Assembly: GCA_026418415.1 (NCBI GenBank)
Contig: JAOABK010000012.1
Location: forward strand, 1-57,017
Reading direction: 5' to 3'
DNA: 57,017 nt
Source: Pseudomonadota bacterium
GTDB lineage: Bacteria > CALINM01
Shown here: positions 5,960-30,132 of the stretch, piece by piece
Position numbering within the stretch: position 1 is the stretch's first letter
Layout: each line of letters begins with the position of its first letter
Made by a program: the position numbers and the translations under genes
The notes under the pieces: model-generated
Told to the model about the DNA's origin: nothing
The model's database searches: none
Seen by the model: the letters and a program-made list of their open reading frames with translations, nothing else

Positions 5960-5980
5960 AAAAATCCCCCTTTATATTTA

Positions 5981-6916: not shown

Positions 6917-6934
6917 AACCCCTCTCCTTTCTGT

Positions 6935-7684: not shown

Positions 7685-7687
7685 AAT

Positions 7688-9619
7688 TTAACCTTTCTTA
7701 ATTTTTCCCATTACGCCGGGAAAATTATTTAAATTTGTATGGGGCAGAAAAAGTGATGCCACATACTCTTCCATAAAGCTTGAATAGTTACTTAACTCAA
7801 TATTGGTCATCATATTAGCACATTTCTCAGCCTCTAACAACTTATCTTTTGAAAAAGCCATTAACCTTGCTCCTGCAAGAGAACTATTACCCACATACAT
7901 AAATTTTTCAACAGGTATTTCTGGTAATAAACCTATAATAATTGCTTTCTCAATATTAATAAAACTTCCAAAACCCCCTGCAATTATAAACTTATCAATG
8001 TTTGTAAAATCAAGCCCTACGCTTTTTAATAAAACAGAACAACCTGCATATATTGCACCTTTTGTTCTTATTATATTATCGATATCCACTTCTGTAATTA
8101 CCAGATCAACTCCTATTTGTGTCTCTTCTTTCCAGGCGAGCACATACTCATATCCACTTTCTCCTTCTCTAACCCGCTTAGTACCTAAGTTTTTTAAGAA
8201 TTTACCATCGGGAGTAATTATACCTGCTTCGAAGAGTTCTGCAATCAATATAATCATTCCCGATCCGCATATTCCCTTAGGTTTTACTTTACCAATAGTA
8301 AAAATAGTGGGTTCAAGGGTTTCTCTATCAATAATTACATTTTCGATAGCCCCTCTTGTCGCTCGCATACCATATTTGACTCCCCCGCCTTCGAAGGCTG
8401 GACCAGCAGAACATGAAGCAGTTACCATCCAATCACTATTTCCCAAAACAATCTCACCATTTGTACCAACATCAATAAATAAAATTAACTCCTGAGTTTG
8501 ATGAATTCCACATGCCATCACACCTGCGACAATATCTCCGCCAACATAGCTTGCAATTAAGGGAGCAGGATATAAATAAACATGGTCAGCCACATCAAAA
8601 CCCAAATTTTTAGCTCTAATAAATGGGAAAAAGTTAACTGTTGGAACATAGGGATCTTCCCTTATATATTTTGGATTTAGACCCAATAAAAGATGGGTCA
8701 TTGTTGTATTTCCTGCAAAAACAATAATAGATATCTTTGATTTATCAATATTTGCCTCTTTAACGGTCTCATTAATTAGAGAATTTAATGATTTTATTAC
8801 TACTTCTTGTAATCTTTCTAACCCCCCCGGTTTAATTCCATAGAGAATTCTTGTAATTACATCTTCCCCATAACTTATTTGAGGGTTATAGTCTGAAGAT
8901 TCTGCTAAAACAGTTCTATTTTTTAAATCTAATAATTGAACGTAAAGAGTTGTGGTACCTACATCAATTGCGACACCATAAAAACTTTCCTCAGTATTAC
9001 CCTCCTCCACACCAATTATTTTTGGGATTTGTCCTTCCTTTTCAAGGATTAGAGCTGTCACTTTCCAATCTGCATTTCTTAATGTATTTGCAAGGTTTTT
9101 TAAACATTTAAAGTCAACTTCCAGATTTTCGTAGTCATATTGCTTCTTTAAACCAAGTATCAACCTTGATAAATCTGCAATATTGTTCTCTATTGTTGGC
9201 TTTGATAGTTCAACATATCTTTTAGTAACGACAGGGCTTGCTTCAAATATATCTTCTATCGTTATTTTTGATGCAGTTAAACCAAATGATTTTTCTTCTT
9301 TTACAGCTTCTTTTCTTTTTAGAACACTTCTATCTAATTTTGATTCAGCAGGTATAATAACAGTACAGTCTGATAATACTGTTGTTTGACAAGCAAGTCT
9401 ATATCCCATATTCCATTCTTCTTCAGTAAGTTTTTCAGATCGCTTACTTTCATATTTTCCCTTTTCTATAAAGACCTTACATTGACCACATGTACCAATT
9501 CCACCACATGAAGCATTGATATGTGCTCCTGCAGCATGAGCAGCTTTTAGAAGATTCGAACCAACCTCTACATTTGCTGACTTCTGATCAGGTAAAAAAT
9601 CAACATTAACTTTTTCCAT
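7688..9619 (-). CDS. acsV: Reductive activator of corrinoid/iron-sulfur protein (RACo)
   Basis: 643 residues. The N-terminal [2Fe-2S] ferredoxin domain has CGGIGTCGQC (about 38-47) and a distal Cys in LACQTT. After a linker comes a C-terminal ASKHA-type ATPase domain (DUF4445) with YGVAIDVGTTTL, FIDVGTNGE and AGGFG. It uses ATP to re-reduce inactive Co(II) corrinoid to Co(I) on AcsCD. It is the first gene of the Wood-Ljungdahl operon. No Shine-Dalgarno sequence precedes the ATG, and a TATAAT hexamer lies 7 nt upstream, suggesting a leaderless mRNA. Confidence 0.9.
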   Translation of the reverse strand: MEKVNVDFLPDQKSANVEVGSNLLKAAHAAGAHINASCGGIGTCGQCKVFIEKGKYESKRSEKLTEEEWNMGYRLACQTTVLSDCTVIIPAESKLDRSVLKRKEAVKEEKSFGLTASKITIEDIFEASPVVTKRYVELSKPTIENNIADLSRLILGLKKQYDYENLEVDFKCLKNLANTLRNADWKVTALILEKEGQIPKIIGVEEGNTEESFYGVAIDVGTTTLYVQLLDLKNRTVLAESSDYNPQISYGEDVITRILYGIKPGGLERLQEVVIKSLNSLINETVKEANIDKSKISIIVFAGNTTMTHLLLGLNPKYIREDPYVPTVNFFPFIRAKNLGFDVADHVYLYPAPLIASYVGGDIVAGVMACGIHQTQELILFIDVGTNGEIVLGNSDWMVTASCSAGPAFEGGGVKYGMRATRGAIENVIIDRETLEPTIFTIGKVKPKGICGSGMIILIAELFEAGIITPDGKFLKNLGTKRVREGESGYEYVLAWKEETQIGVDLVITEVDIDNIIRTKGAIYAGCSVLLKSVGLDFTNIDKFIIAGGFGSFINIEKAIIIGLLPEIPVEKFMYVGNSSLAGARLMAFSKDKLLEAEKCANMMTNIELSNYSSFMEEYVASLFLPHTNLNNFPGVMGKIKKG

Positions 9620-9710: not shown

Positions 9711-9754
9711 AAAAGTCAGTTTCTATCCTCTAAAAAAGAAAGGAAACTGACTTT
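9711..9754 (-). terminator. Hairpin at the end of the complex I operon
   Basis: A 12-bp perfect stem (AAAGTCAGTTTC 9712-9723, GAAACTGACTTT 9743-9754) has a 19-nt loop that contains the nuoN stop codon. In the minus direction it is followed by TTTTAT, a weak U-tract. It probably ends most nuo transcripts or separates them from the acs operon. Confidence 0.55.
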
Positions 9755-11178
9755 ATCGTTAAATCAAAGAGTTTTCCTGGTAGTACACCAATATTCAAAA
9801 CACCAATTGCTGAAATCAAGATCGCAACAACTTGCGGAGCTGAAATATTTATATTTGAAATAGGTTCTTCAGCATCCTTGAAATACATATAAACAAGTAC
9901 TCTCAAATAGTAATAAGCTGATATAGCAGAGTTTAATACACCAATAATGGCAAGAGAGACATAGCCAGACTGGATTGCTCCTGTAAAAATATAAAATTTG
10001 CCTGCAAAACCAGATGTGGGAGGTACTCCAGCCAAGGAAAACATAAAAATTACCATCATAAATCCAAGGAAAGGATGTTTAAAACCCTTTCCTGAAAGAT
10101 GGTTCAATTCGGTGCTATGAGTTTCTTTTTCAAAAAATGAAATTATTGCAAATGCTCCGATATTCATAAGAGCATAGGATATTAAATAGAAAATTACTGC
10201 TCCCAATCCAATTTGGTTTAGAGATGTAAAACCGACTAATAAATACCCAGCATGGGCAATACTTGAATAGGCTAACATTCTTTTAACACTTTTTTGCGCA
10301 AGGGCTGAAAGATTACCAAGTGTCATTGTAAAAACAGCTAAATATGCAATTATACCTGCATAATCAACAACTACCCCTCTTAATCCCAACAAATATACCC
10401 TGAAGAGCATCGAAAATGCTGCTGCTTTAACAGCAGTCGCCATAAAGGCTGTAACTGTCGTTGGAGCGCCTTCGTATACATCAGGAGTCCACATATGAAA
10501 TGGTACCGCTGCAATTTTGAAAACTATTCCTGAAAAAACAAGAGCTGATCCCATTAGCAACGGCAGGCTCTTACCATCCATAAAATATTTTGTGAAATGC
10601 TGGAGCATATAAGCAAAATTAGTTGTGCCAAAAGCACCATAAAGAAAGGCAACCCCAAGGAGAAAGATCGCTGTAGAAAAGGATCCTAAAAGAAAATATT
10701 TCATCGCTGATTCAATAGACCTTTCACTTTGTTTGAAAAGCCCCGCTAAAACATAAATTGATAGAGACATCATCTCAAGCCCTAAAAATAAAATAAGAAA
10801 ATCAAGAGCTGATACCATAAAGGACATACCTGCTATTGCAAATAAAATCAAAGCATAGTATTCACCAGTATGCTTTATCTTTCCTTCAATATAATTATCT
10901 GATAAAAGGCATACTAAAAATCCTGAGACAAAGAAAATAGCATTAAAAATACCCACAAGTTCATCAAACAATATAATGTTTGAAAAACCTAATTTTCTAC
11001 TACCAAAGAGATATATATTTACCATAAAGGCCAAGGCAATTCCTAAAGCAGATATCTGTCCCAAATAACCACTCTTGGAAACCTTGGTATAACCACCTAT
11101 CAACATTAATAAAAAACCAAAACAGATCAAAACCAGTTGAGGCGCTATACTCCAAAAGTTTATATTAAGCTCTCCCAT
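9730..11178 (-). CDS. nuoN: Complex I membrane subunit N (second cluster)
   Basis: 482 residues, almost wholly hydrophobic with about 14 membrane segments, of the antiporter-like NuoN/L/M family. The conserved lysine regions (for example TATAMKAAAF-like TAVKAAAFSML and KRMLAYSSIAHAGY) are present. It forms one proton channel of the membrane arm. It is the last gene of the second nuo cluster and begins one base after nuoM. It is distinct from the NuoN at 24082-25497 and of similar length. Confidence 0.95.
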   Translation of the reverse strand: MGELNINFWSIAPQLVLICFGFLLMLIGGYTKVSKSGYLGQISALGIALAFMVNIYLFGSRKLGFSNIILFDELVGIFNAIFFVSGFLVCLLSDNYIEGKIKHTGEYYALILFAIAGMSFMVSALDFLILFLGLEMMSLSIYVLAGLFKQSERSIESAMKYFLLGSFSTAIFLLGVAFLYGAFGTTNFAYMLQHFTKYFMDGKSLPLLMGSALVFSGIVFKIAAVPFHMWTPDVYEGAPTTVTAFMATAVKAAAFSMLFRVYLLGLRGVVVDYAGIIAYLAVFTMTLGNLSALAQKSVKRMLAYSSIAHAGYLLVGFTSLNQIGLGAVIFYLISYALMNIGAFAIISFFEKETHSTELNHLSGKGFKHPFLGFMMVIFMFSLAGVPPTSGFAGKFYIFTGAIQSGYVSLAIIGVLNSAISAYYYLRVLVYMYFKDAEEPISNINISAPQVVAILISAIGVLNIGVLPGKLFDLTIKSVSFLF

Positions 11179-12723
11179 TTATTTTCCCCCTTTGACCTGC
11201 TCATTTACTATATTTTTATTTTCAATGCTCATTGTTACATGTTTATTATACCTATTTAAAAACTCATTAACGGAAAGATGCATTTTCCTTAAAAAATAAT
11301 TTGGATATAATCCCATAACAAAAAACATAATTACAATAGGAACCATAGTCATAATTTCTCTTAAATTCAGATCCTTTATTTTCTTATTTTCTTCATGAAC
11401 AATGGGCCCATACATTACCCTTTGAAACATCCATAACATATATGCAGCAGAAAGAATAACACTGGTAACACCTAAAACAGCCCACAATGTATTAGCTTTA
11501 AATGCACCTGCAAAAATTAAAAACTCACCTATAAAACCATTCAATCCTGGTAGACCAATAGATGACAGTGTAACAACCATAAAAAATGCTGCAAACACTG
11601 GTATTTGCTTGGTTAATCCTCCAAAGTCAGCTATCAATCTTGTATGTCTTCTTTCATAGAGCATACCAATCATTATAAAGAGAGCACCTGTACTTAATCC
11701 ATGATTAAGCATCTGGTAAATACCACCCTCTATTCCCTCTCTATTAAGACTAAAAAGACCAAGCATTACTGCACCTAAATGACTAACAGATGAATAAGCA
11801 ACAAGCTTTTTTACGTCAGGTTGCATCATCGCAACAAGTGCACCATATATTATTCCTATAATAGAAAGGGCAACAAAAAAGGGTATAGATGCCTGTGTGG
11901 CATTTGGGAATAAACCCATAGCAAATCTTATAAATCCATAAGTTCCCATTTTCAACAAAACACCTGCAAGAATAACACTACCAGCGGTAGGTGCTTCCAC
12001 ATGAGCATCAGGCAACCATGTATGTAGTGGAAACATTGGAACTTTAATTGCAAAAGATAGTGCAAATGCAGCAAAGAGCCAGATCTGTACTTCATAGGGT
12101 GGTATATTTTCATAAAGCTTTAATAAGTTAAATGTGTAGTCTCCAGTCTTACTACCCACATAGAAGTAGAGAACTAAAATTGCAACAAGCATCAAAACAC
12201 TACCAAAAAGAGTATAAAGAACAAACTTTATCGCTGCGTATATCCTTCTTTGCCCACCCCAAACCCCTATAATAAAGTACATGGGGATTAGCATAAGCTC
12301 CCAGAAAACATAAAATAAAAACAAATCGAGCGCAACAAAGGCTCCAAGCATTCCTGTTTCAAGAACAAGCATACAGATTAAAAATTCTCTAACATTCTTA
12401 TGAATATAGGTCCAGGAACAAAGAATACATATTGGCACTAAAAAGGTTGTTAGAACAAATAGCAACAGTGAAATGCCATCTATCCCAACAAAATAACTTA
12501 TCCCTAATCTTTCTATCCATACATACATCTCGGTAAACTGAAATCCCGGTGTATTTTCATTAAAATAGAAAAGTACTGGTAATGATATGATAAAATCAAT
12601 TAGTGCTATTACAAATGCCACACCTTTTAATACCCGCTCGTTTTCCTTGTTTATCATGAAAAGAATCAAAACACCCAGTAATGGGAAAAATGTCACAATA
12701 CTTATAATTGGAATACCCTGCAT
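11179..12723 (-). CDS. nuoM: Complex I membrane subunit M (second cluster)
   Basis: 514 residues. Family motifs include the conserved Glu in FWELMLIPMYFIIG, PMFPLHTWLPDAHVEAPTAGS and KKLVAYSSVSHLG. It is a proton-pumping antiporter-like subunit between NuoL and NuoN. Its 3' end provides the GGGGG-rich ribosome-binding site for nuoN. Length is normal for the family. Confidence 0.95.
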   Translation of the reverse strand: MQGIPIISIVTFFPLLGVLILFMINKENERVLKGVAFVIALIDFIISLPVLFYFNENTPGFQFTEMYVWIERLGISYFVGIDGISLLLFVLTTFLVPICILCSWTYIHKNVREFLICMLVLETGMLGAFVALDLFLFYVFWELMLIPMYFIIGVWGGQRRIYAAIKFVLYTLFGSVLMLVAILVLYFYVGSKTGDYTFNLLKLYENIPPYEVQIWLFAAFALSFAIKVPMFPLHTWLPDAHVEAPTAGSVILAGVLLKMGTYGFIRFAMGLFPNATQASIPFFVALSIIGIIYGALVAMMQPDVKKLVAYSSVSHLGAVMLGLFSLNREGIEGGIYQMLNHGLSTGALFIMIGMLYERRHTRLIADFGGLTKQIPVFAAFFMVVTLSSIGLPGLNGFIGEFLIFAGAFKANTLWAVLGVTSVILSAAYMLWMFQRVMYGPIVHEENKKIKDLNLREIMTMVPIVIMFFVMGLYPNYFLRKMHLSVNEFLNRYNKHVTMSIENKNIVNEQVKGGK

Positions 12724-12735
12724 GTCATACCCCTC

Positions 12736-14652
12736 TTAAAAAATAAATATACTTATAATTAAAACAACTCCCAATAGTATACCAACCGCATAGTTTTGAG
12801 TAGAACCTGTTTGAATTTTTGCAAATATACCACCAAAATATTGGACAATTGCACCTACTCCATTTACTATGCCATCTATAACAAGCACATCAAATTTCTG
12901 CCATAGTAGCGTGCCCAATCCCTTACATCCCTTGACAAAAATAAACTCATAAATCTCATCAACATAGTACTTATTATAAAGCAAGGTATAAATACCCTTC
13001 ATTTTCTCTGCTAAGGAAACTGGCAATTGGGGATTCTTTATATAGAATGTATAGGCAATAAAAAAACCTACCACCGCTATTCCAACAGAAATCGCCATTA
13101 AACCATATTCAAGGGCATGAGAATAATGATGGGGTTGCGTAGTTCCAACCTTTTTAATAACAGGTTCAAGGAAATGATGGAAATGATTACTTCCACCTAA
13201 TGCTTCTGGAACTCCCACATATCCGCCAATTACTGAAAGCACAGCAAGAATCATTAATGGAATTATCATTGAATTAGGAGATTCATGGATATGGTGCTTT
13301 GTGTGCTCATCCATTCTTTCCTTCCCAAAGAAGGTTAGAAAAGTAAGCCTAAACATATAAAAAGACGTCATTCCAGCTGCAACAGTTCCAATCAACCAGA
13401 GTAACGGATGACCATGGGGGCTTGAAAAAGCCTGCCATAGAATTTCATCTTTACTAAAAAATCCTGATAGCCCTGGTGTTCCAGCAATTGCCAAAGTACC
13501 TATTAGGAATACAATAAAGGTTTTGGGTATATATTTTCTTAGTCCACCCATATTCATTATATCCTGTTCGCCACCCATAGCATGTATTACACTACCAGCA
13601 CCAAGAAAGAGTAAGGCTTTAAAAAAAGCATGGGTCATAAGATGGAAAATGCCAGCAGAATATGCAGCAACCCCGACACCTAAGAACATATAGCCCAACT
13701 GACTTATTGTTGAATAGGCAAGAACCTTTTTAATATCCCTTTGAACAAGCCCCATAGATGCAGCAAATATTGCTGTTAATGCGCCTATTGTTGCTACAAC
13801 TCCCAAACTAAAAGGTGCAAGGGAATATAAAACATTACATCTTGCAATCATATATACACCTGCGGTAACCATTGTAGCTGCATGGATTAATGCAGATACA
13901 GGTGTTGGACCCGCCATAGCATCTGGTAACCATACATAAAGTGGTATTTGAGCAGATTTTCCCGTAGCACCAACAAATAATAAAAGTGTTATAGCGGTAG
14001 CAAGAGTACCCCCATAGGGTAATAGAGTTGTTGCTTTGTCAAAGACCTCTAAATATCTTAAACTACCAAAAGTAACAATTATTAGAAAAATTCCAAGAAT
14101 AAAGCCAAAATCACCAACTCTGTTAACTACAAAAGCTTTTTTACCAGCATCTGCATTAGCATGGTCATCATACCAGAAGCCAATTAACAAATAGGAACAT
14201 AAACCAACACCTTCCCAACCAACAAACATCATAAGGAAATTATTTCCCATTACAAGTAGTAGCATTGCAAAAACAAAGAGGTTTAAATATGTAAAAAACC
14301 TCCAGTATGATTCATCTTCATGCATATAACCAGTTGAATAAATATGTATTAAAAAGCCAACGCCAGTTACAACAAGAAGCATTACTGCACTAAGTGGGTC
14401 AAGCAGAAAACCAACATCTACAGAAATACCCCCTGAATATATCCAGGAATACAGTATTACTTCTACAACCCTCTGATCAGGTGGTAAAGATAATAATTGG
14501 AAAAAAGCTTTCAAGGATAAAACAAAAGACACACCTATTGCAGTAATTGCAATATCATGTACAACCCTTTTAGAAAACTTATATCCCAGAAGCCCATTTA
14601 TTAGAGCACCTAAGGCTGGAAAAAGAGGAATACAAATTAAATAGTTAAACAT
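12736..14652 (-). CDS. nuoL: Complex I membrane subunit L (second cluster)
   Basis: 638 residues, with the antiporter core followed by the long lateral-helix extension typical of NuoL. Motifs seen are WEGVGLCSYLLIGFWY, PLYVWLPDAMAGPTPVSALIHAATMVTAG and KKVLAYSTISQLGYM. It caps the membrane arm distally. A short histidine-rich stretch (DEHTKHHIHESP) lies in the loop before the C-terminal helices. Confidence 0.95.
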   Translation of the reverse strand: MFNYLICIPLFPALGALINGLLGYKFSKRVVHDIAITAIGVSFVLSLKAFFQLLSLPPDQRVVEVILYSWIYSGGISVDVGFLLDPLSAVMLLVVTGVGFLIHIYSTGYMHEDESYWRFFTYLNLFVFAMLLLVMGNNFLMMFVGWEGVGLCSYLLIGFWYDDHANADAGKKAFVVNRVGDFGFILGIFLIIVTFGSLRYLEVFDKATTLLPYGGTLATAITLLLFVGATGKSAQIPLYVWLPDAMAGPTPVSALIHAATMVTAGVYMIARCNVLYSLAPFSLGVVATIGALTAIFAASMGLVQRDIKKVLAYSTISQLGYMFLGVGVAAYSAGIFHLMTHAFFKALLFLGAGSVIHAMGGEQDIMNMGGLRKYIPKTFIVFLIGTLAIAGTPGLSGFFSKDEILWQAFSSPHGHPLLWLIGTVAAGMTSFYMFRLTFLTFFGKERMDEHTKHHIHESPNSMIIPLMILAVLSVIGGYVGVPEALGGSNHFHHFLEPVIKKVGTTQPHHYSHALEYGLMAISVGIAVVGFFIAYTFYIKNPQLPVSLAEKMKGIYTLLYNKYYVDEIYEFIFVKGCKGLGTLLWQKFDVLVIDGIVNGVGAIVQYFGGIFAKIQTGSTQNYAVGILLGVVLIISIFIF

Positions 14653-14662
14653 ACGCTCACCC

Positions 14663-14980
14663 TTACCCCTTTAAAATATTTAATTTATCCATGTCTACTG
14701 TGCCTTTTAATCTAAAGAGCATAATAATGATCGCAAGCCCAATAGATACTTCCGCTGCTGCAACAGCCATAATGAAAAATACATACATTAAACCTAAGCT
14801 CGTTTTTAAAAAATGGGAGTAGGCAACGAAAAGCAAATTTACAGAATTTAGCATCAATTCAATGGACATAAAACAAATCAAAAGATTTCTGCGAATTATA
14901 AAACCAAGAACACCTATACAGAATAAAATACAGCTCAAAATTACATAGTAATTTATCGTTATTTCCATTTCTCCCCCCAT
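14663..14980 (-). CDS. nuoK: Complex I membrane subunit K (second cluster)
   Basis: 105 residues, three membrane helices. The conserved glutamates of the E-channel are visible in LLICFMSIELMLNSVNL and MAVAAAEVSIGLAI. The start overlaps the nuoJ stop (TAATG). A second ATG four codons in is preceded by a G-rich stretch and could be the true start. Confidence 0.93.
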   Translation of the reverse strand: MGGEMEITINYYVILSCILFCIGVLGFIIRRNLLICFMSIELMLNSVNLLFVAYSHFLKTSLGLMYVFFIMAVAAAEVSIGLAIIIMLFRLKGTVDMDKLNILKG

Positions 14981-15492
14981 TACTCCTTTTTCTTTCCTAA
15001 GACAACAGCACCGATTATACCCACTATAAGCACTATAGATACTACTTCAAAGGGAAGCAGATAATCACTAAAAAGAGCGTGTCCTATTATTTTTGTATTA
15101 TCCAATCCTTTTGTATCTATAAAAAATCTCTCAATTCCTGGAACATTTGCAGTAACATTGAAACCTGCAACCACCAACTGTAAGAAAAAAAGCCCAGTTA
15201 GGATTGCACCAGCAATTCTGCCTGAAGTTGCTTCAATCTTATATTTTTTTACCTCTCCCAAATTTAATAACATTATTACAAAAACAAATAGTACCATTAT
15301 TGCACCTGCATAGACAATTAACTGGATAACAGCGATAAATTCTGCATTAAGTAGTAAATAGTTCACAGCAAGGGCAACCATAACTACAATAAGTGACACT
15401 GCACTATAAACTGGGTTTTTTTGCAAAACCGTTGATAAGGCAGCAATTACAGCAACTATACCAACTATGATTGTAATATAACTCGTAATCAT
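14980..15492 (-). CDS. nuoJ: Complex I membrane subunit J (second cluster)
   Basis: 170 residues with five predicted membrane helices. The conserved FIAVIQLIVYAGAIMVLFVFVIML region around the pi-bulge helix is clear, followed by the C-terminal helix EVVSIVLIVGIIGAVVLGKK. The start overlaps the nuoI stop by 4 bp (ATGA). It is part of the proton translocation path near the quinone site. Confidence 0.94.
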   Translation of the reverse strand: MITSYITIIVGIVAVIAALSTVLQKNPVYSAVSLIVVMVALAVNYLLLNAEFIAVIQLIVYAGAIMVLFVFVIMLLNLGEVKKYKIEATSGRIAGAILTGLFFLQLVVAGFNVTANVPGIERFFIDTKGLDNTKIIGHALFSDYLLPFEVVSIVLIVGIIGAVVLGKKKE

Positions 15493-15905
15493 ATCTTTAC
15501 CTCATCCCCTCTTTTTAACAGGGTATCCCTGTCAAGTATAAGTTCTTCTTTCTTATAAGCTGCGTTTTCATATTGAGGTGTAAGAACTATTGCATTTACT
15601 GGACAAACTTCCTGGCATAGTCCACAGAAAATACATCTCCATCCGTCAAGTATATAAGTTTTAGGATACCTCATTCCATCTTCCAATTCGCCTATTTCTA
15701 TTTTTATGGCCTTAGCTGGACAAATTGCCTCGCAAAGACCACAGGCAACACATTTAATACTCCCATCTGGCTTTCTACCTATAATATGAAGCCCCCTATA
15801 CCTTGGAAAGGATCCAACTTTTTCTTCAGGGTAGTGAACTGTTATAGGTTTACTAAAAAAATACTTTAAGGTTATCCAAAGACCTTTAACTAACGGCTTA
15901 ATCAT
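15489..15905 (-). CDS. nuoI: Complex I subunit I, two [4Fe-4S] clusters (second cluster)
   Basis: About 138 residues. Two ferredoxin motifs, CVACGLCEAICP and CIFCGLCQEVCP, bind clusters N6a and N6b and carry electrons toward NuoB. I start at the ATG that follows GGTGGG. An in-frame GTG at 15917 has no ribosome-binding site but would add four residues. It lies between nuoH and nuoJ as usual. Confidence 0.93.
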   Translation of the reverse strand: MIKPLVKGLWITLKYFFSKPITVHYPEEKVGSFPRYRGLHIIGRKPDGSIKCVACGLCEAICPAKAIKIEIGELEDGMRYPKTYILDGWRCIFCGLCQEVCPVNAIVLTPQYENAAYKKEELILDRDTLLKRGDEVKI

Positions 15906-15917
15906 AGTTTCACCCAC

Positions 15918-16916
15918 CTAATTTAATAACATCATAACCAAACCGGTTACAAAAATATTTGCAAGTGCTATTGGTACCATAACTTTCCAACCCAATTTCA
16001 TAAGCTGATCGAACCGAACCCTTGGATAGGTTGCTCTAACCCAGATAAAGAAAAATATTAGAATAAATACCTTTATCATAAACCATACAAGGGGTGGTAA
16101 AAAGGGGCCATGCCAACCACCAAGAAATAGCGTTGTAGCTAAACTTGCTACTGTAATCATATTTGCATATTCTGCCATGAAGAACATTGCAAATTTCATG
16201 CTACTATAATCTGCATGGAATCCTGCAACAAGCTCTGATTCTGCTTCTGGCATATCAAAGGGGGTTCTATTTAGTTCTGCAATTCCACATATAAGATACA
16301 TAATAAATGCAACTGGTTGGTATACTACATTCCATACATTTTTTTGAGCATTAACAATTTCTACAAGATTAAGCGAACCAGATATCATTATTACACCAAT
16401 AACTGATAAAGTAAGGGCAAGCTCATAGCTTATCATTTGTGCTGAACCACGTAATGCACCCATAAGAGCATACTTATTATTTGCAGACCAACCGCCAAAA
16501 ACTACACCATAAGATCCAAGTCCAGCTAAAGCAAATATATACAATATCCCAACATTTAACTCTGCAATTCTCATTGGCTCAGGATTTTTTAGTAAACCAA
16601 AAAAAGTTGTATAATCTCCAAAGGGAATAACAGCAAAGGTCATAAGGGCCGGAATTATACTAAGTGTTGGAGCAAGAATAAACAAAAACTTATTTGCATT
16701 CCTTGGAATTATATCTTCTTTAAAGAAAAGTTTTATACCATCTGCTATGGGTTGAAGTAATCCATGCCATCCCGCATACATAGGCCCTACTCTTATCTGT
16801 ATATGACCTATTACCTTTCTCTCAATCCATGTAAGATAGGCAACACAAAGCATAACACAAGCAAAAACTACAACAACCTTAACAAAGGTAAATATAACAA
16901 GTGACCAATCAATCAT
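15918..16916 (-). CDS. nuoH: Complex I membrane subunit H (second cluster)
   Basis: 332 residues, eight or more membrane helices. Signature stretches are [41 protein letters not shown] and VRATYPRVRFDQLMKLGWK. It forms the quinone-access chamber. The start overlaps the stop of the formate dehydrogenase gene by 4 bp (ATGA), so translation of the two is coupled and the FDH belongs to this operon. Confidence 0.95.
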   Translation of the reverse strand: MIDWSLVIFTFVKVVVVFACVMLCVAYLTWIERKVIGHIQIRVGPMYAGWHGLLQPIADGIKLFFKEDIIPRNANKFLFILAPTLSIIPALMTFAVIPFGDYTTFFGLLKNPEPMRIAELNVGILYIFALAGLGSYGVVFGGWSANNKYALMGALRGSAQMISYELALTLSVIGVIMISGSLNLVEIVNAQKNVWNVVYQPVAFIMYLICGIAELNRTPFDMPEAESELVAGFHADYSSMKFAMFFMAEYANMITVASLATTLFLGGWHGPFLPPLVWFMIKVFILIFFFIWVRATYPRVRFDQLMKLGWKVMVPIALANIFVTGLVMMLLN

Positions 16917-19597
16917 ACTGTTGTCCCCTTAACATGCTTTTTTATTCTAACAGCAGACACTTTTAATTCGGGTATTTTAGACACAGGATCAAGAATTGTA
17001 TTTGTTAGCTTATTTACCGCTGCTTCTGAAAAATGGAAATGCTTAAATACAACACCTTTTGGTACTCTATCTGAAAACTTTGCTTTAACAATTACATGAC
17101 CTCTTCTGCTCTCCACGACAACCCATTCTCCATCTCCAATACCTAAATTATTCGCATCTTCTGGATTAATTTCAACCATGCTTTCTTGACAATAATAATT
17201 AAGTACTCTCGCCTTTCTTGTCATTGTCGACGAGTGGTAATGATAATAATTTCTACCAGTGGTTAGAACAAAGGGATATTCATTATCTGCAGACTCTGCA
17301 GGTGGTCTATATTCAACAGGAACTATAAGCCCTTTACCTCTTGCAATTTTACCTACATGTAAAATTGGTGTACCAGGATGATTTTCATCTGGGCAAGGCC
17401 ATTGAATGCCTTTCAAGCCCAATCTCTTATAAGTAATACCAGCATATTGGGGAGTAACCTTTCTAATTTCTTCAAAAATCTCTTCAGCATTTTTGTAATT
17501 CATTGGATAACCCATTTTTGTAGAAAGTTCACTGATAATTTTCCAGTCCTGCTTTGCTTCACCTGGCTCATTAACAGCTTTCCTAACAAGTTGTACCCTT
17601 CTTTCCGTATTTACAAATGTCCCATCTTTTTCTGCAAAAGATGCCGACGGTAAAACCACATGAGCCAATTTTGCAGTTTCTGTAAGAAAAATATCCTGTA
17701 CTATGAGCAATTCCAGATTTTTCAATGCCTCTTCTACATGGGTTATATCTGGATCGGTAACCATGGGATTTTCACCCATTATATACATTGCTTTTAATTT
17801 TCCCTCATATGCAGCATTAGTCATCTCAACGATCGTAAGACCTGGTTTGTCTGAAAGTTCTACATTCCAGAATGCTTCAAATTTAGCTTTATTTTCAGGA
17901 AGATGCACTTTCTGATAACCAGGATATACATCTGGTAGCCCTCCCATATCACAGGCTCCCTGAACATTGTTCTGCCCTCTCAATGGATTAACTCCAGATC
18001 CAGGTTTACCAATATGACCACATAACAATGCAAGATTCGATATAGCTTTTACATTATCAGTGCCTTTCGAATGTTGGGTAATTCCCATGCAATAAAGAAT
18101 TGCTGCATTTTTTGCCTTTGCATATATTCTTGCTACTTCTCTAAGCTTATCTGCTGGTATTCCACAAATTTGTTCAACATATTCCGGGGTATATTTATCA
18201 ATAATCTTCTTTAACTCCTCAAATCCCTCTGTCTGTTCTTCTACAAACTTTTTGTTATATAAACCTTCTGAAATAATCACATTTGCCATTCCATTCAGCC
18301 ATGCAACATCATGCCCCGGTTTTGGTGAAAGCCACATTATTGCTTCTTCTGTAAGATCTATCTTTCTTGGATCAACAACAATTAGTTTTACTCCTTTATA
18401 ACGAGACAAATGTCTCAACCACATTCCAATAACAGGATGGGTCTCTGTTGTGTTGCTTCCAGTAACAATGATAACCTCAGCTTCTTTTAAATCTTCTACT
18501 GAGTTTGTCATTGCGCCTGAGCCCAATGTAGTAGCCAGACCGGCTACAGTAGAGCTGTGTCAGAGCCGGGCACAGTGGTCTACATTATTTGTTCCTATTA
18601 CTGCTCTTATGAATTTTTGAAAGAGATAGTTATCTTCATTTGTACATCTTGCTGATGCAAGACCTGCAATGCTATCAGAACCATATTTGTTTTTTATCTC
18701 AGTAAGTTTTGAAGCAACAAAAGATAAAGCTTCATCCCAAGTTGTCTCGACAAGCTCATTGCCCTTTCTAATTAAAGGTTTTGTTAATCTTTCTGGACTG
18801 TTTACAAACTCATAACCAAACCTTCCTTTAGCACATAAAACACCTTTATTCATTCCCGCATTTACATCTGTTGTTACCTTAATTATCTTATTGTCTAAAA
18901 CATTTAATTCTAAGCTACATCCTACACCACAATAGGCACATACTGTAGGAACTCTTTTTATCTGCCATATCCTTCCTTTAGTTGGACTCACCGTTTCAGT
19001 TAATGCACCAACAGGACATGCAGATAAGCATTCTCCACAAGCAATACACCGGTCTGGATTAACTGGTTCTACCCTTGCATCAAAACCATTTCCCACAATA
19101 TCAAGTACATTTCTTCCCACCACTTCTCTGCATGTTCTAATACACCTGCTACACATAACACATCTATTAGGATGGTATTTTATAGCGGGTGTAGAATATT
19201 CTTTATATTCTTTTAGTGGAGCCTTTATTGTATAAGGCTGAACGTCCACATTATATTCATAAACGAGATCCTGTAATAAACATTCCCCTCCTTTATCACA
19301 TATAGGACAATCAAGGGGATGATTAATTAAAAGAAATCTTAGTATATCTTTACGCATGTTTCTAATTTTTTCAGTGTTAGTCCTAATCACCATACCATCA
19401 ACAGCAGGGGTATTACATGCAGTGACAGGATTTTCATATCCCTCAACTTCAACAACACACATCCTACAAGATCCAATGGGAAGCAATTTTTCCATAAAAC
19501 AGAGAGTAGGTATATGAATACCCTCTTTCTTTGCTATTTCAAGAATTGTCAACCCATGATCGGCAGTTATGTTTTTACCATCTATAACTATTTGCAT
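16913..19597 (-). CDS. fdhA: Selenocysteine formate dehydrogenase alpha subunit with NuoG-like N-terminus
   Basis: One 894-residue reading frame interrupted only by UGA at 18560-18562 (residue 346). Across it the frame reads CARLUHSSTVAGLATTLGSG, the classic active-site context of selenocysteine formate dehydrogenases; the same frame continues to 16913. Domains: [2Fe-2S] (C33, C44, C47, C61); His-Cys3 cluster (H93, C97, C100, C106); two ferredoxin clusters (C146-C156 and C184-C194); Mo/W bis-MGD domain opened by CAYCGVGC (C220, C223, C227, C255). It oxidises formate or reduces CO2. It takes the NuoG slot in a nuo operon, downstream of the SfrB-like gene and overlapping nuoH. Without UGA readthrough it would look like a truncated NuoG plus a headless oxidoreductase. 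Confidence 0.95.
18531..18547 (-). promoter_or_regulatory. Bacterial SECIS element
   Basis: In the mRNA sense, 12 nt after the UGA, there is a perfect hairpin: stem GUAGCC/GGCUAC with loop GGUCU. The GGUCU apical loop is the SelB-binding loop known from the E. coli fdhF SECIS, and the distance from the UGA is similar. This marks the UGA as selenocysteine rather than stop. Confidence 0.95.
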
Positions 19598-19611
19598 ACC
19601 CTTCTCTCTCC

Positions 19612-21528
19612 TTATTGTTTATCGTAGGCAAATGTTACTACTCTATAACAACGAAGGCATCTACTTGCCTCGTATATTGCTTCTTCTTTTGTAAATCCCT
19701 TTGTATATTCATTAAAATTAGTTTTTCTAACCTCGGGAGGATCATGTTTTATATGAGCCCTTTTTAAACCTCCAGGTACCCTCTTTTTCTCTTTAATATC
19801 GAAGGGTTTTAACTCAGCTATGACTTTTTCTAAAAGCTGTTCATCATAGACCTCTAACTTGCCCTTTGTAAGGTAATCATTAATTTTCATTGCAGCGAGC
19901 CTTCCATGAGCACAAGCTCTAATTAAAACATCGGCGCCAATTACACAGTCTCCACCTGCGAAAACACCAACTCTTGTACTCATAAAATTTTCATCCACAA
20001 GGATTGTCTGTTTTTTAGTGATTTCAACACCATTTATAGCGGTAACACAACAACTAATATCAGCTTCCTGACCTATCGCTGGAACTAAAACATCAGTTTC
20101 TATAATAAACTCCGAACCAGGTACCGGTACTGGACTTCTTCTGCCAGAAGCATCTGGTTCACCCAACTGCATCTTTATGCATTCAAGTCCTACAACTTTA
20201 CCATCCTTACTAATCACCCTTTTGGGTGCTGTTAACATATGAAATTTAACACCCTCCTCTTCTGCTTCCATGACTTCAACAAAATCAGCAGGCATCTCAG
20301 CTTTTGAACGCCTGTAAACTATATTTACATCTTCAAATCCCATCCTAAGAGCACTTCTTACACAATCCATTGCCACATTTCCGCCACCAACAACTACGAT
20401 TTTCTTACCCTTGGGGATTTCCTGCCCTGTATTTATATACCTTAAAAAGTAAACACCAGGTATATAGCCTTGTAAATTTTGATCCTCTCCTTCAATGTCT
20501 AATTTTTTATGGCAATGACATCCTAAACCCACAAAGACCGCTCTATATCCATCATTTTCTAAATCCTCAACAGTAAAATCAATACCAAAGGTTTTGTTAT
20601 AAACAATCTTCACTCCCAATTTCTCTATTTCACTAACTTCACCTCTTAAAATCTCTCTTGGAAGTCTATAATCTGGAATACCCACCGCTGCCATACCACC
20701 TGGTTCCGAAAGGGTTTCAAAAATTGTCACATCATATCCCTCTTTAGCTAAAAAGAATGAAGCGGTAAGGCCTGCAGGACCTGCACCAATGATTGCTACT
20801 TTTATATTTTTCTTTGGTTTACATTCAAATTTTGGCCAGTAATCTCTTTCTAATGCAAAATCTGCCACAAACCTTTTTAAATGTTTTATTTGTATAGGCT
20901 CATCAAGTAGGGTCCTTCTACAATTAAACTCACAGGGTCTTACGCAAACCCTACCTACAACACCTGGCAACGGTAATTTTTCACATATGGTTTCAAGTGA
21001 GTCTTCATATCTTCCAAATTTTATGTTTTCAACATATTTTGGTATATCAAGATGAATTGGACAGGCCTGCATACAGGGAGCAGTCATTGCAGATTTATAT
21101 TCGAATGCTTTAGCTGTCCCCCTTTTACCATTGATATAATCTAAAAATACATCTTTGTGCTGTTCAATAATATATTTAAAAACCCTTGGTGAACTCTGAC
21201 CAATCTCACACATCGAAGATAAAGAGATATTTTCTGATAGTAAAACAATATTATCTAAGTCATCACTCTTTCCTTCACCTTTATAAATTCCTTCAAAAAT
21301 ATCTCTAATAACCCTTGTACCAACCCTGCAGGGAATACATTGTCCACAGGAATAGTTCTGAATTGCTCTCGAATATTCTAAACACAACTCAATTAGGTCT
21401 ATTGAAGGATCAAATACCTCTATCCCATCCCAACCTATCACTGCTTTAACATTTTTTTCACCATACTTTAATGGTTTAGGATTTTCATCGTATTTGTTAT
21501 TCCAAAAAGCAAATGTCTTGTCTATCAT
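19612..21528 (-). CDS. SfrB-like NuoF/GltD hybrid: NAD(P)H oxidoreductase subunit
   Basis: 638 residues. Residues about 50-130 match only the C-terminal [4Fe-4S] domain of NuoF (C61, C64, C67 in SCGQCIPC, and C107); the NuoF FMN/NADH domain is missing. Then comes a GltD-type region: iron-sulfur cysteines at about 152-156 and 195-203, an FAD fold with IIGAGPAGL at 246, an NAD(P) fold with VVVGGGNVAMD at 378, and GDCV near the C-terminus. This layout resembles SfrB, the NADPH-oxidising partner of SfrA in Geobacter. Placed between nuoD and fdhA, it would pass electrons between NAD(P)H and the FDH/complex I iron-sulfur chain. Cofactor preference (NADPH or NADH) cannot be told by eye. Confidence 0.85.
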   Translation of the reverse strand: MIDKTFAFWNNKYDENPKPLKYGEKNVKAVIGWDGIEVFDPSIDLIELCLEYSRAIQNYSCGQCIPCRVGTRVIRDIFEGIYKGEGKSDDLDNIVLLSENISLSSMCEIGQSSPRVFKYIIEQHKDVFLDYINGKRGTAKAFEYKSAMTAPCMQACPIHLDIPKYVENIKFGRYEDSLETICEKLPLPGVVGRVCVRPCEFNCRRTLLDEPIQIKHLKRFVADFALERDYWPKFECKPKKNIKVAIIGAGPAGLTASFFLAKEGYDVTIFETLSEPGGMAAVGIPDYRLPREILRGEVSEIEKLGVKIVYNKTFGIDFTVEDLENDGYRAVFVGLGCHCHKKLDIEGEDQNLQGYIPGVYFLRYINTGQEIPKGKKIVVVGGGNVAMDCVRSALRMGFEDVNIVYRRSKAEMPADFVEVMEAEEEGVKFHMLTAPKRVISKDGKVVGLECIKMQLGEPDASGRRSPVPVPGSEFIIETDVLVPAIGQEADISCCVTAINGVEITKKQTILVDENFMSTRVGVFAGGDCVIGADVLIRACAHGRLAAMKINDYLTKGKLEVYDEQLLEKVIAELKPFDIKEKKRVPGGLKRAHIKHDPPEVRKTNFNEYTKGFTKEEAIYEASRCLRCYRVVTFAYDKQ

Positions 21529-21543
21529 CTTTTAACCCCTATT

Positions 21544-22719
21544 TTAACGGTCGATTTCTCCAAGAACTATATCTATACTACCAATGACTGCAACCACATC
21601 AGCAATCATAGACCCTTTAACAATCTCTGGCAAAGCAGAAAGATTTACAAAACATGATGATTTTATTCTAAATCTGTATGGCATTGATGAACCATCACTA
21701 ACTATGTAAAATCCTAACTCTCCTTTGGCATTCTCTACTGAAGCATAAACTTCACCTTTTGGAACTGTAAAACCTCCACAACCAATTTTAAATTGATGTA
21801 TCAAAGCTTCGATGTTTTTAAGCACTAAATCCTTGTCAGGAAAAACAATTTCTGGAACATGGGCTTTAATAGGTCCTTCAGGTAATCTTTTTATGGCCTG
21901 CTTTAAAATCCTATTACTCTGTCTTAACTCTTCCATTCTCACAAGATATCTATCATAGTTATCACCTTTAGAACCCACCGGTACATCAAACTCATACTCT
22001 TCGTAACCACAATAAGGTTGAGCTTTCCTATAATCAAACTTAACGCCAGATCCCCTCAATGCTGGTCCAGTTAATCCCCAACTTATCGCATCCTCAGCTG
22101 AAATAATACCTATATCCTTTGTTCTTGCTAACCAAATTGGATTTTTTGATAACAATTTATCATACTCATCTACATGGGCATCAAAGGTATCTACAAACTC
22201 CTTTAATTTATCCATAAAACCTTCTGGTAAATCTGCAAGAAGTCCACCTATCCTTATGTATGAAGGGGTTAATCTTTGCCCCGATACCATCTCCCACATA
22301 TCAAGAATCTTTTCCCTTTCACGGAAGCAATAGAAATAAAGAGTCATTGCACCAATGTCAAGGGCATGAGTTGCAAGCCAGATTAAATGCGCAGCGATTC
22401 GAGAGAGTTCTGACATTATTACTCTTATAACCTTAGCTCTTTCTGGTACTTCAATATTCATAAGCTTTTCAACAGCAAGACAATAGGCAAGATTATTAAT
22501 CATCGCTGAGGTGTAGTCTAATCTGTCTGTATAAACAATATTCTGTATATAAGTCTTTGATTCACCTAACTTTTCTACACCTCTGTGTAGATGCCCAATT
22601 ACAGGTATTGCGCGATGGATAACTTCGCCTTCAAGCTCAAGTATGACCTTGAGAACCCCATGTGTTGCGGGGTGCTGAGGTCCCATATTAAGGGTCATGT
22701 ATTTTTTCTGTTCACTCAT
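21544..22719 (-). CDS. nuoD: Complex I subunit D (second cluster)
   Basis: 391 residues of the 49-kDa/NiFe-hydrogenase large-subunit-like family. The quinone-site loop NMGPQHPATHGVLK and the Tyr in TDRLDYTS are kept. There are no CxxC pairs for nickel, so it is a complex I subunit and not a hydrogenase. A separate gene from nuoC. It is followed 15 bp later by the SfrB-like gene where nuoE/nuoF would normally be. Confidence 0.94.
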   Translation of the reverse strand: MSEQKKYMTLNMGPQHPATHGVLKVILELEGEVIHRAIPVIGHLHRGVEKLGESKTYIQNIVYTDRLDYTSAMINNLAYCLAVEKLMNIEVPERAKVIRVIMSELSRIAAHLIWLATHALDIGAMTLYFYCFREREKILDMWEMVSGQRLTPSYIRIGGLLADLPEGFMDKLKEFVDTFDAHVDEYDKLLSKNPIWLARTKDIGIISAEDAISWGLTGPALRGSGVKFDYRKAQPYCGYEEYEFDVPVGSKGDNYDRYLVRMEELRQSNRILKQAIKRLPEGPIKAHVPEIVFPDKDLVLKNIEALIHQFKIGCGGFTVPKGEVYASVENAKGELGFYIVSDGSSMPYRFRIKSSCFVNLSALPEIVKGSMIADVVAVIGSIDIVLGEIDR

Positions 22720-22722
22720 TTT

Positions 22723-23181
22723 TTAAGACTCCTCAATTCCCTGAAGTGGGAAATCCTTTCTTAATGGATAATATTTAAAATCTTCTGTCATTAAAATCCT
22801 TCTTAAATCTGGATGATTTTTAAAATTAATTCCAAACATATCAAAGACTTCTCTTTCAAGCCATTCAGCCCCCTTCCACAACGATGTAACGCTTTCAACA
22901 CTATCCCCTTCTTCAACCCTTGATTTAACTCTTATCCTTATATTATTTGCTATAGAAAAAATGTGATAAACAAGCTCAAATCTTGGCTTTTGCTCGGGAT
23001 AATCCACTGCTGTAATATCTGCAATCATATTAAATTTCAAACGTTCATCTTCTTTCAATAATTTCAAAAAACTAAACAAACTTTCTTTAGGTACTAAAAC
23101 AGTTACACAATCTATTCCTTCATAGGCATCGATTTTGAATTCGCAATTTTTTAATATATTTATCAGTTCTAAGCGTTCCAT
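22723..23181 (-). CDS. nuoC: Complex I subunit C (second cluster)
   Basis: 152 residues of the 30-kDa subunit family. The C-terminal signature is EREVFDMFGINFKNHPDLRRILM followed by YYPLRKDFP. It is an iron-sulfur-free structural subunit of the quinone module. It lies between nuoB (8 bp gap) and nuoD (3 bp gap). Confidence 0.93.
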   Translation of the reverse strand: MERLELINILKNCEFKIDAYEGIDCVTVLVPKESLFSFLKLLKEDERLKFNMIADITAVDYPEQKPRFELVYHIFSIANNIRIRVKSRVEEGDSVESVTSLWKGAEWLEREVFDMFGINFKNHPDLRRILMTEDFKYYPLRKDFPLQGIEES

Positions 23182-23189
23182 AAATTCTC

Positions 23190-23663
23190 CTAAACCCTAT
23201 CTTTTAATGACTCTTTCACTATTTTTTCTCTTAACATCACTATAGCTCTTAATAATGCCTCTGGCTTAGGTGGACAACCAGCAACATAGACATCGACAGG
23301 GATAATCTTATCAACACCTTGTACTACATTATAGGTATTAAAAAGCCCCCCAGAACATGCACAGGCGCCATAAGCTATTACCCACTTTGGTTCTGGCATT
23401 TGGTTATAAAGTTTTATTACATAGGGTGCCATTTTTTTTGTCAAAGTTCCCGGAACAATTAAAAGATCTGATTGTCTTGGAGAACCACGGAAAACCTCTG
23501 CACCAAATCTTGCTATATCATGCCTTGCTGATGCTGCTACCATCATCTCCAAAGCACAACAAGCAAGCCCGAAGGTCATGGGCCATAGTGAATTTTTCCT
23601 AGCCCAGTTAACTACCTTGTCTAATGATGTAGTAATTATACCTAAATGACTTTCTATTCCCAT
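23190..23663 (-). CDS. nuoB: Complex I subunit B, cluster N2 (second cluster)
   Basis: 157 residues. All N2 ligands are seen: the tandem CC in [10 protein letters not shown], Cys in YGACACSGG and Cys in [11 protein letters not shown]. It hands electrons to quinone. The start lies inside the nuoA 3' end (10-bp overlap), a coupling also seen in the first cluster. Confidence 0.95.
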
Positions 23664-24010
23664 TCTAATGCTCCTTTTGCCCAGACATATATAAAGCCAA
23701 ATAATAAAATTAATAAAAATACCATCATCTCTATGAAACCAAACCAGCCAAGTTTTTTGAATAAGACAGCCCAGGGATACATAAATGCTGCTTCTATGTC
23801 AAATATTATAAAAAGCATTGCTATTATGTAGTATCTTACAGGATAACGATCTCTTGCATCACCAATAGGCACATTACCACATTCATAGGGCGCTAACTTA
23901 TCTTCATTTGGTTTTTTCTGACCAATTAGTGATGAGACAATTACTGAACCACACGCAAAGGCAATCGCTATGATACCTATTATTAATATAGGCAAGTAAC
24001 TTTGTAGCAT
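23654..24010 (-). CDS. nuoA: Complex I membrane subunit A (second cluster)
   Basis: 118 residues, three membrane helices. The conserved loop [20 protein letters not shown] and the helix [13 protein letters not shown] are present. First gene of the second cluster, with a strong GGGGGGAG ribosome-binding site. It is 71 bp after the end of the first cluster, enough for its own promoter. Confidence 0.95.
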
Positions 24011-24081: not shown

Positions 24082-25497
24082 TTAACCCACAAGGTATCTA
24101 ATCGCCTTTTCAGCCCAATTTAATAATGGCGCGGGATAAAAACCCATAACAATAATAAATACAATCGAAAAATAGCTATAAACTCTTACTGGAACAGTAA
24201 CCTTCATCTTTTCTTTTTCATCTGGCATAAACAAATATGCCTGCCTTGCAACTAATAAATAGTAATAAACTGAGATAACACTATTTAAAAAGGCTATCAA
24301 AACAAGTGTTAAATAACCTTTATTAATTGCTGATGAGAATATAAACCACTTCCCAGTAAAACCAACAAAGGGCGGAACACCTCCAAGGGAGAGCAAGGCA
24401 AGTAATAATGATAAAGACAATAAAGGTGCTCTTTGACTAAGCCCCTTTAAAGCTGTTAGCTCTGTTGAACCCTTTTCTTTCTCAACCTGATCAATTACAA
24501 GAAATACTGTAAAATTCATTACAAGATAGGCTGTTACATAAAATAGAGTTGATGACATACCACTTTTATTAAACATTACCAAACCAACAAGCATATAACC
24601 CGCTTGGGCAATACTTGAATAGGCAAGTAGTCTTTTTAACTCTTTTTGTTGAACCGCAACAAGATTTCCAAATGTCATAGTTAATATAGAAATTAAAATT
24701 AAGATCTTCTCCTGATCTGCAAATATTGGGAAAAAGTATACAAAAATCCTTAGAAGAACTGCTACACCAGCCACCTTTGATACAGTTGCTATATAGGCAG
24801 TAACATTAGTGCTTGCCCCCTGATATACATCGGGTGCCCAAAAGCTAAAGGGTAGTATCGCAAGCTTAAAGAAAAAGGCTGTAAGAAAAAAGATAAAGCC
24901 AATATATAAAATTACATCTTTCATCATAAACATTGAACCAATACGCATCGCCTGAAGGCTTGTATCTCCAAAATAGCTGAAAATGATAGAATAACCATAT
25001 AATGTTAAAGCAGAAGCAACAGCTCCAATAAATAAATATTTAATGCCTGCTTCTGCACTTATCTTTTTATTCTTTAAAAATCCCACAAGAACAAACATCG
25101 TATATGATGAGAGCTCGAGTGATAAGAATAGGGTTATAAACTCCAAGGCGCTTGATAACATCATCATGCCTAAATTTGAACTAAAGAGAAAAAATAGAAA
25201 CTCTCCATAATTTTTCTTTATAGTATTTTCAATTCTCTTATCAGCCATAAAAATTATAAAGAAAAGACCAACCGCAAGGATAAATTTTATTGACTGAGAA
25301 AAGAAGTCAATCTTATAAGTTCCATAAAAGAATAGACCATTTAAATTTATTGTAAAAAGTATAATTAGAATGTTAATGATGGAAAAAAACATTCCAGTTT
25401 TATGAAGCGTTTCCATAGAAATCTTTTTAAATGCTGACAAAAGAAAAAAAACAGCCATTAAAAAGGTTAATATCTCAGGAAGTATATAGATAATCAC
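24082..25497 (-). CDS. nuoN: Complex I membrane subunit N (first cluster)
   Basis: 471 residues, about 14 membrane segments. Motifs include AILPFSFWAPDVYQGASTNVTAY, KRLLAYSSIAQAGYM and GGVPPFVGFTGKW. Antiporter-like proton channel subunit and last gene of the first (E/F/G-less) cluster. It clearly belongs to the same family as the NuoN at 9730-11178 but is diverged from it, so the two clusters are not a recent duplication. Confidence 0.94.
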   Translation of the reverse strand: MIIYILPEILTFLMAVFFLLSAFKKISMETLHKTGMFFSIINILIILFTINLNGLFFYGTYKIDFFSQSIKFILAVGLFFIIFMADKRIENTIKKNYGEFLFFLFSSNLGMMMLSSALEFITLFLSLELSSYTMFVLVGFLKNKKISAEAGIKYLFIGAVASALTLYGYSIIFSYFGDTSLQAMRIGSMFMMKDVILYIGFIFFLTAFFFKLAILPFSFWAPDVYQGASTNVTAYIATVSKVAGVAVLLRIFVYFFPIFADQEKILILISILTMTFGNLVAVQQKELKRLLAYSSIAQAGYMLVGLVMFNKSGMSSTLFYVTAYLVMNFTVFLVIDQVEKEKGSTELTALKGLSQRAPLLSLSLLLALLSLGGVPPFVGFTGKWFIFSSAINKGYLTLVLIAFLNSVISVYYYLLVARQAYLFMPDEKEKMKVTVPVRVYSYFSIVFIIVMGFYPAPLLNWAEKAIRYLVG

Positions 25498-25507
25498 ATT
25501 CCCCTCC

Positions 25508-26980: not shown

Positions 26981-26993
26981 GGCTATCCTCCTT

Positions 26994-28880: not shown

Positions 28881-28882
28881 AA

Positions 28883-30122: not shown

Positions 30123-30132
30123 TTTCTACCTC

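Follow-up and report, generated by a model that had tools for sequence, protein, structure and literature searches.

The window analysed here is a stretch of 57,017 nucleotides from a Pseudomonadota bacterium (GTDB lineage Bacteria; CALINM01; contig JAOABK010000012.1 of assembly GCA_026418415.1). Its subject is an operon of 13 genes on the minus strand (24010-9730), in which a complete 11/11 set of respiratory complex I genes (nuoA, B, C, D, H, I, J, K, L, M, and N) encloses an sfrB-like gene and fdhA, the gene for a formate dehydrogenase (FDH) alpha subunit. The order is nuoA-B-C-D, sfrB-like, fdhA, nuoH-N, and the genes are packed as one operon with internal gaps of -10 to +15 bp. An earlier reading made from the letters alone (the sequence-only reading) had described eleven core nuo genes around two genes at the usual nuoE/F/G site and an overlap of 4 bp between fdhA and nuoH; order, coordinates, and domain matches were confirmed, and the overlap is exact. 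The source genome is a metagenome assembly of 161 contigs that is 92% complete with 4.8% estimated contamination.

Genes of the operon and their conserved residues

23654..24010, minus strand: nuoA (complex I chain 3), first gene of the operon; PF00507, 1.4e-40
23190..23663, minus strand: nuoB, N2 cluster motif LACCALE / ACACSGG / GCPPKPE; PF01058, 4.7e-28, and motifs
22723..23181, minus strand: nuoC; PF00329, 2.9e-47
21544..22719, minus strand: nuoD, quinone-site His/Tyr motifs GPQHPATHG and RLDY; PF00346, 3.3e-120; TIGR01962, 572 bits
19612..21528, minus strand: sfrB-like gene, NuoF [4Fe-4S] (N3) domain and GltD-type FAD/NADP(H) module, in the place of nuoE/nuoF; PF10589, PF14691, PF07992, motifs, structure model
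16913..19597, minus strand: fdhA, selenocysteine (Sec) FDH alpha subunit with NuoG-like N-terminal Fe-S region, in the place of nuoG; TIGR01591, 922 bits; TIGR01973, 448 bits
18560..18562, minus strand: in-frame TGA read as selenocysteine; motif, downstream fold, SelA in the genome
15918..16916, minus strand: nuoH, conserved acidic loop; PF00146, 9.6e-131, and motif
15489..15917, minus strand: nuoI, two CxxCxxCxxxCP motifs (N6a, N6b); domain match and motif
14980..15492, minus strand: nuoJ; gene order and homology to the J genes of relatives
14663..14980, minus strand: nuoK; sequence, and gene order as in relatives
12736..14652, minus strand: nuoL, TM5 Glu and TM7 Lys motifs; sequence and motif check
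11179..12723, minus strand: nuoM, Glu and Lys channel motifs; sequence and motif check
9730..11178, minus strand: nuoN, Lys channel motif, last gene of the operon; sequence and motif check

Scans for promoters (below chance) and terminators (only slightly above chance) were of no help for reading the operon.

The SfrB protein (638 aa) consists of the NADH_4Fe-4S domain of NuoF (PF10589, residues 49-128), followed by Fer4_20 (PF14691) and Pyr_redox_2 (PF07992). A domain search of SfrB found no Complex1_51K FMN domain, and the protein also lacks GRGGAGFP and ESEPGT, two motifs of NuoF. It carries two GltD-type [4Fe-4S] motifs; GAGPAGL marks its FAD site and GGGNVAMD...VYRRSKAEMPA a second site of NADP type. 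The sequence-only reading had proposed that only the Fe-S domain of NuoF is kept and that a GltD-type NAD(P)H module is gained; this architecture stands, with the amendment that the module most likely binds NADP(H) rather than NAD(H). The structure model is confident (predicted local distance difference test, pLDDT, of 90), and the folds it matches best are GltD-type subunits, those of NfnABC and StnABC. Every nuo-linked SfrB examined retains the full set of four N3 cysteines, and in three stand-alone proteins (G037, G310, and G113) Gly takes the place of the third, a pattern that, in these small numbers, would fit an N3-N1b path in use in nuo-linked SfrB.

FdhA is encoded by one reading frame with a single TGA at codon 346, embedded in the local motif DHCARL-U-HSSTVAGL. 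An FDH alpha subunit requires a Sec/Cys-His pair and an active-site Arg, and both are present: the pair lies in DHCARL-U-H and the Arg in a second motif downstream, RGQNNVQGACDMG (RGQNNVQG), residues which we take to be the catalytic ones, as in FdhF. The 60 nt starting just before the TGA fold with -20 kcal/mol (z -2.0; 7/200 shuffles), which lends modest support to a selenocysteine insertion sequence, and SelA is encoded on contig C95 of the genome. FdhA scores 922 bits against the Fdh-alpha profile TIGR01591 (cut-off 666) and 448 bits against the NuoG profile TIGR01973 (cut-off 470). Fer2_4, NADH-G_4Fe-4S_3, and Fer4 domains precede its molybdopterin domains, and both four-cysteine motifs of the ferredoxin-like domain are present; to judge from complex I and FdsA, the clusters of this domain could connect the molybdopterin site with the principal cluster chain. 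The NuoG-like N-terminus and the Sec site named by the sequence-only reading were thus recovered, although such an N-terminus is not unusual on its own, as FdsA, which matches FdhA, has one (PDB 6tg9, E 1.9e-233). The predicted structure of FdhA itself was weak (pLDDT 67, eight sequences) and was not used.

A motif check found the N2/N6 ligands of NuoB and NuoI, the quinone-site His/Tyr of NuoD, the acidic loop of NuoH, and the Lys/Glu residues of NuoL, NuoM, and NuoN all intact. An unbroken series of cluster ligands leads from the FDH site via FdhA, NuoI, and NuoB (N2) to the NuoD quinone site. The NuoD sequence contains no CxxC nickel ligands, for which reason a formate hydrogenlyase was rejected. 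The sequence-only reading had named nuoE/F/G elsewhere, shown to partner this membrane arm, as one finding that would speak against it; separate NuoE and NuoF proteins were rejected as well, since PF01257 and PF01512 gave no match in the whole genome (92% complete) while positive controls worked.

Two proteins of the genome carry PF00384, namely FdhA and a non-FDH protein of 610 aa. FdhA is therefore the sole FDH detected, and at 92% completeness the absence of others is not proof. The 610-aa molybdopterin protein is encoded on another contig (C79; L047 11815-18449) with NrfD, a ferredoxin-type protein, a CCG/Nar-gamma fusion, and c-type cytochromes, a cluster that likely forms a quinone-linked membrane complex. 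The genome further encodes a partial formyltetrahydrofolate synthetase (FTHFS), located at a contig end, and a menaquinone biosynthesis gene of the MqnA/D family (PF02621).

Recurrence in other genomes and neighboring operons

Relatives of the operon were sought in a survey of 386 genomes across the domain and in a GTDB scan. For each search only the best-scoring loci were read, and the layout counts are therefore lower bounds. The sequence-only reading had recommended a search for the order nuoD-sfrB-fdhA-nuoH, and this order proved not to be unique to the window. The same layout, A-B-C-D-sfrB-fdhA(Sec)-H to N, occurs in L001, in G237 (98% complete, with a single NuoD), and in G099 up to its contig limits. 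L001 is a metagenome-assembled genome (MAG) titled Deltaproteobacteria and classed as Myxococcota, and G237 and G099 are both surveyed members of another small phylum. Identity to the window is about 50% for SfrB and 58-62% for FdhA. As the order recurs in three further genomes, the arrangement is not due to chance.

SfrB-type proteins are tied to nuo genes in five different operon layouts. Besides the layout of the window, three genomes of one family (G013, G161, and G300; loci L040, L074, and L075) have the same order with a NuoG of 694-710 aa without formate site in the place of FdhA; the G161 locus as fetched stops in nuoI. In G336, sfrB stands at the operon front (sfrB-NuoG/SfrA-type-A-B-C-D-H-I-J-K-L). 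The order sfrB-NuoG/SfrA-type-J-K-L-M-N is found in G026 and G173 (L039, L086, and L144), where complex I appears to be split; G026 carries A-B-C-D-H-I on another contig. In G023 (L045 3212-6283), a full NuoF-GltD fusion of 1024 aa lies right before A-B-C-D and a NuoG-like gene, and fusions of 1020-1080 aa are common in other genomes. Stand-alone pairs were also found, either sfrB-fdhA with a true FDH (for example G267 and G385) or sfrB-sfrA (for example G037 and G316). The latter two genomes (L139 and L140) have a separate headless nuo operon, lacking nuoE/F/G, on which their SfrAB might dock in trans.

The Sec/Cys-His pair and the Arg are present in 4/4 proteins of the layout seen in the window and in the FdhA of G267, G385, G285, and G340. 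Neither is found in the short NuoG proteins of G013, G161, and G300, in any alpha-type protein of the layouts with sfrB at the operon front or before nuoJ, or in the SfrA-type proteins. The ligands of N1b, N5, and the ferredoxin-like clusters are kept in the FdhA/NuoG-type proteins examined, with the exception of N5 in G340. G013 (100% complete) and G300 (99%) have one NuoD each and no PF01512 NuoF, which leaves SfrB as the sole candidate for NAD(P)H entry into their complex I. In our view this is the strongest argument that an SfrB encoded in a nuo operon would be a complex I subunit, and the operons of this family probably encode an NADPH-driven complex I.

In the SfrB tree, the short SfrB proteins form one group (Shimodaira-Hasegawa-like approximate likelihood ratio, SH-aLRT, of 99), within which L001, G099, and G237 are nearest to the window, at a fork that is unsupported (36). 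The full-length tree of FDH-type FdhA splits the four nuo-linked proteins from four FdhA outside nuo operons (SH-aLRT 87). NuoD of the operon is placed, though not firmly, with complex I NuoD proteins from the same broad group. It is plausible that the formate-linked form arose once and was transferred later.

Two further operons flank the operon on the same strand:

24082..33566, minus strand: second nuo operon A2-B2-C2-D2-H2-I2-J2-K2-L2-M2-N2, headless; also in siblings G001 and G002
1478..9619, minus strand: carbon monoxide dehydrogenase/acetyl-CoA synthase (CODH/ACS) operon acsV-cooC-acsD-acsB-acsC-acsE; profile matches; 110 bp downstream of nuoN

The second nuo operon (33566-24082), which the sequence-only reading had not mentioned, is complete without E/F/G and ends 71 bp upstream of nuoA. 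Its NuoD2 is 88% identical to the sole NuoD of sibling G001, where the same aminotransferase-like neighbor is found, and it is the older complex I of the lineage.

A candidate formate- and NADPH-linked complex I

We consider it probable that the products of the 13 genes form a single membrane enzyme, namely a complex I with FdhA in the NuoG slot and SfrB in the NuoE/NuoF slot. The sequence-only reading had likewise suggested a single membrane complex, and synteny together with the parallel SfrB cases strongly suggests one. Such an enzyme would be a reversible formate/NADPH:menaquinone oxidoreductase. Its assembly, donor specificity, proton pumping, and direction are what we infer from the gene content and order, the conserved ligands and active-site residues, the absence of NuoE and NuoF, and the recurrence in other phyla. 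Electrons from formate would enter at a Mo/W-bis-molybdopterin guanine dinucleotide and selenocysteine site, pass to a proximal [4Fe-4S] cluster at the N7 position, and continue over the two [4Fe-4S] clusters of the ferredoxin-like domain of FdhA and N5 to N6a/N6b (NuoI), N2 (NuoB), and menaquinone. Electrons from NADPH would enter through the FAD of SfrB and its two [4Fe-4S] clusters, reaching N1b of FdhA by way of the NuoF-type N3. Quinone reduction would then drive the intact proton channels of NuoH, NuoL, NuoM, and NuoN, and the same enzyme could also exchange electrons between formate and NADP(H). Its role in this organism may be that of the FDH of the Wood-Ljungdahl methyl branch. By their redox potentials, the oxidation of formate with menaquinone could sustain pumping; running the reaction backwards would require a large proton motive force.

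Several observations weigh against the assembled enzyme. Pairs of FdhA and SfrB that have a true formate site are also encoded at loci without nuo genes (G267, G385, G285, and G340), so the pair can probably work without a membrane arm, and the adjacent headless nuo operon shows that a complex I lacking E/F/G genes operates in this lineage. In the N-terminal region, a search for residues that set nuo-linked FdhA apart turned up nothing convincing. The NuoG profile TIGR01973 gives 443-453 for nuo-linked and 347-432 for stand-alone FdhA; as the stand-alone protein of G285 (432) comes close to the nuo-linked range, the NuoG score is not diagnostic. The phylum of the window is represented by three genomes in the survey, and in the two siblings, G001 and G002 (91% and 84% complete), neither SfrB nor this FdhA was found, so that the sfrB-fdhA operon was either gained in the species of the window or lost in the siblings. 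Contigs of both siblings end inside the second nuo operon, and the site next to it is unreadable there.

The main rival explanation holds that FdhA and SfrB are a soluble NADP-dependent FDH, merely co-transcribed with a headless 11-subunit complex I that is fed by ferredoxin or another donor. The stand-alone pairs of G267 and G385 with their full formate site and the headless 11-gene operons next door and in the siblings speak for it, and a ferredoxin donor has been proposed for the headless nuo operon of Moorella (PMC13040438). We nevertheless regard it as unlikely because in three separate lineages the pair occupies the canonical E/F/G site, with nuoD on one side and nuoH on the other, because near-complete genomes with SfrB and NuoG at that site have no NuoF, and because five operon layouts link SfrB-type proteins to nuo genes. 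A join of unrelated genes by misassembly or a chimeric MAG would be conceivable for a metagenome assembly with the contig number and contamination given above and an operon missing in the siblings. It was rejected as highly improbable since the identical order is found in L001, G237, and G099 and since GC (35-37%) and GC at third codon positions (21-29%) are even across acs and both nuo operons, the second of which retains its own neighbor as in G001.

If the complex is assembled, it might still run in the oxidative direction only, with formate supplied by C1 oxidation in a reversed Wood-Ljungdahl pathway, an alternative that concerns reversibility rather than assembly and to which we give a real though lesser chance. 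Transfer from formate to menaquinone is strongly downhill (about -430 to about -75 mV), and the genome holds both the menaquinone gene and the NrfD/CCG-type membrane complex with c-type cytochromes. Against this stands FdhA as the only FDH found beside FTHFS and CODH/ACS: if the organism fixes CO2 by this route, the FdhA enzyme must make formate. A far more speculative variant of the assembled enzyme is flavin-based bifurcation, in which the FAD of SfrB would split the electrons of NADPH between menaquinone (over NuoI/NuoB) and CO2 at the FDH site. The reduction of CO2 to formate would then be paid for by the oxidation of NADPH with menaquinone, and the membrane arm would tune the balance through the proton gradient.

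Relation to known enzymes

With respiratory complex I (NDH-1, NuoA-N), the proposed enzyme shares all 11 subunits of the Q-module and the membrane arm, the N2/N6 clusters, and the quinone-site and channel residues, but NuoE and NuoF (FMN, NADH) are missing, and SfrB and a competent FDH take the E/F/G place. SfrAB of Geobacter sulfurreducens is a soluble NADPH oxidoreductase, as cited in two papers (PMC7483475, PMC9888536). It likewise places an SfrB-type protein (NuoF [4Fe-4S] and GltD, no FMN domain) beside a NuoG/FDH-like alpha subunit, whereas the alpha subunit described here has a full formate site and the two genes are embedded in a nuo operon rather than forming a stand-alone two-gene locus; the lack of a formate site in SfrA was judged on the SfrA-like proteins of the survey rather than on the Geobacter protein itself. 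FdsABG (PDB 6tg9) and HylCBA-FdhA also have an FdhA with NuoG-like N-terminal clusters, but the present system has no FdsB/FdsG (the NuoF/NuoE homologs; PF01512 and PF01257 are absent) and has SfrB and a nuo membrane arm instead. Formate hydrogenlyases (Hyc/Hyf, Fdh-Ech) similarly join an FDH to a membrane arm related to complex I. They reduce protons at a NiFe site, whereas NuoD here lacks the CxxC ligands and has quinone-site motifs, and NuoA-D and NuoH-N are genuine complex I subunits. In the StnABC and NfnABC transhydrogenases, a GltD-type NADP(H) subunit feeds a NuoF/NuoG-like Fe-S scaffold as well; those enzymes are soluble and electron bifurcating, with an FMN-containing NuoF and without FDH or membrane arm.

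Headless 11-subunit complexes (Moorella, Fpo, NDH-1L type) resemble the operon in having no NuoEFG, and differ in that the operon described here encodes two candidate input subunits. An 11-subunit Nuo without N-module is known from Dehalococcoidia (PMC4959651), and the nuo cluster of Desulfurivibrio dismutans AMeS2 was reported to lack NuoEFG and to have an unknown donor (PMC12142623). SfrB/FdhA-type genes are a possible input module for some of these headless operons; if the locus tags of the AMeS2 cluster (RS03515-RS03575) run in steps of five, there would be room for 13 genes, and SfrB/SfrA-type genes may be among them. In agreement with the sequence-only reading, which knew of no characterized complex of this make-up, no description of a nuo-sfrB-fdhA composition was found in the literature searched (subscription journals and preprints were outside its coverage). 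We regard it as a novel form of complex I, perhaps one among several of the SfrB type.

NuoG resembles an FDH that has lost its cofactor, and the reason is an old question. A competent FDH at the NuoG position of a genuine complex I, found in several phyla beside variants whose NuoG lacks the formate site, offers a natural series for studying the gain or loss of that site. If it works as proposed, one enzyme would link the redox chemistry of formate, NADPH, and menaquinone with the proton gradient and would provide a means to drive or harvest the Wood-Ljungdahl methyl branch.

Elsewhere in the window, a gene for a multiheme c-type cytochrome comes after those for the AtpI-like, a, and c subunits of ATP synthase (34946-37396), a group divergent from the second nuo operon, and CRISPR cas6 and cas1, with unassigned proteins in between, are located at 52887-55852.

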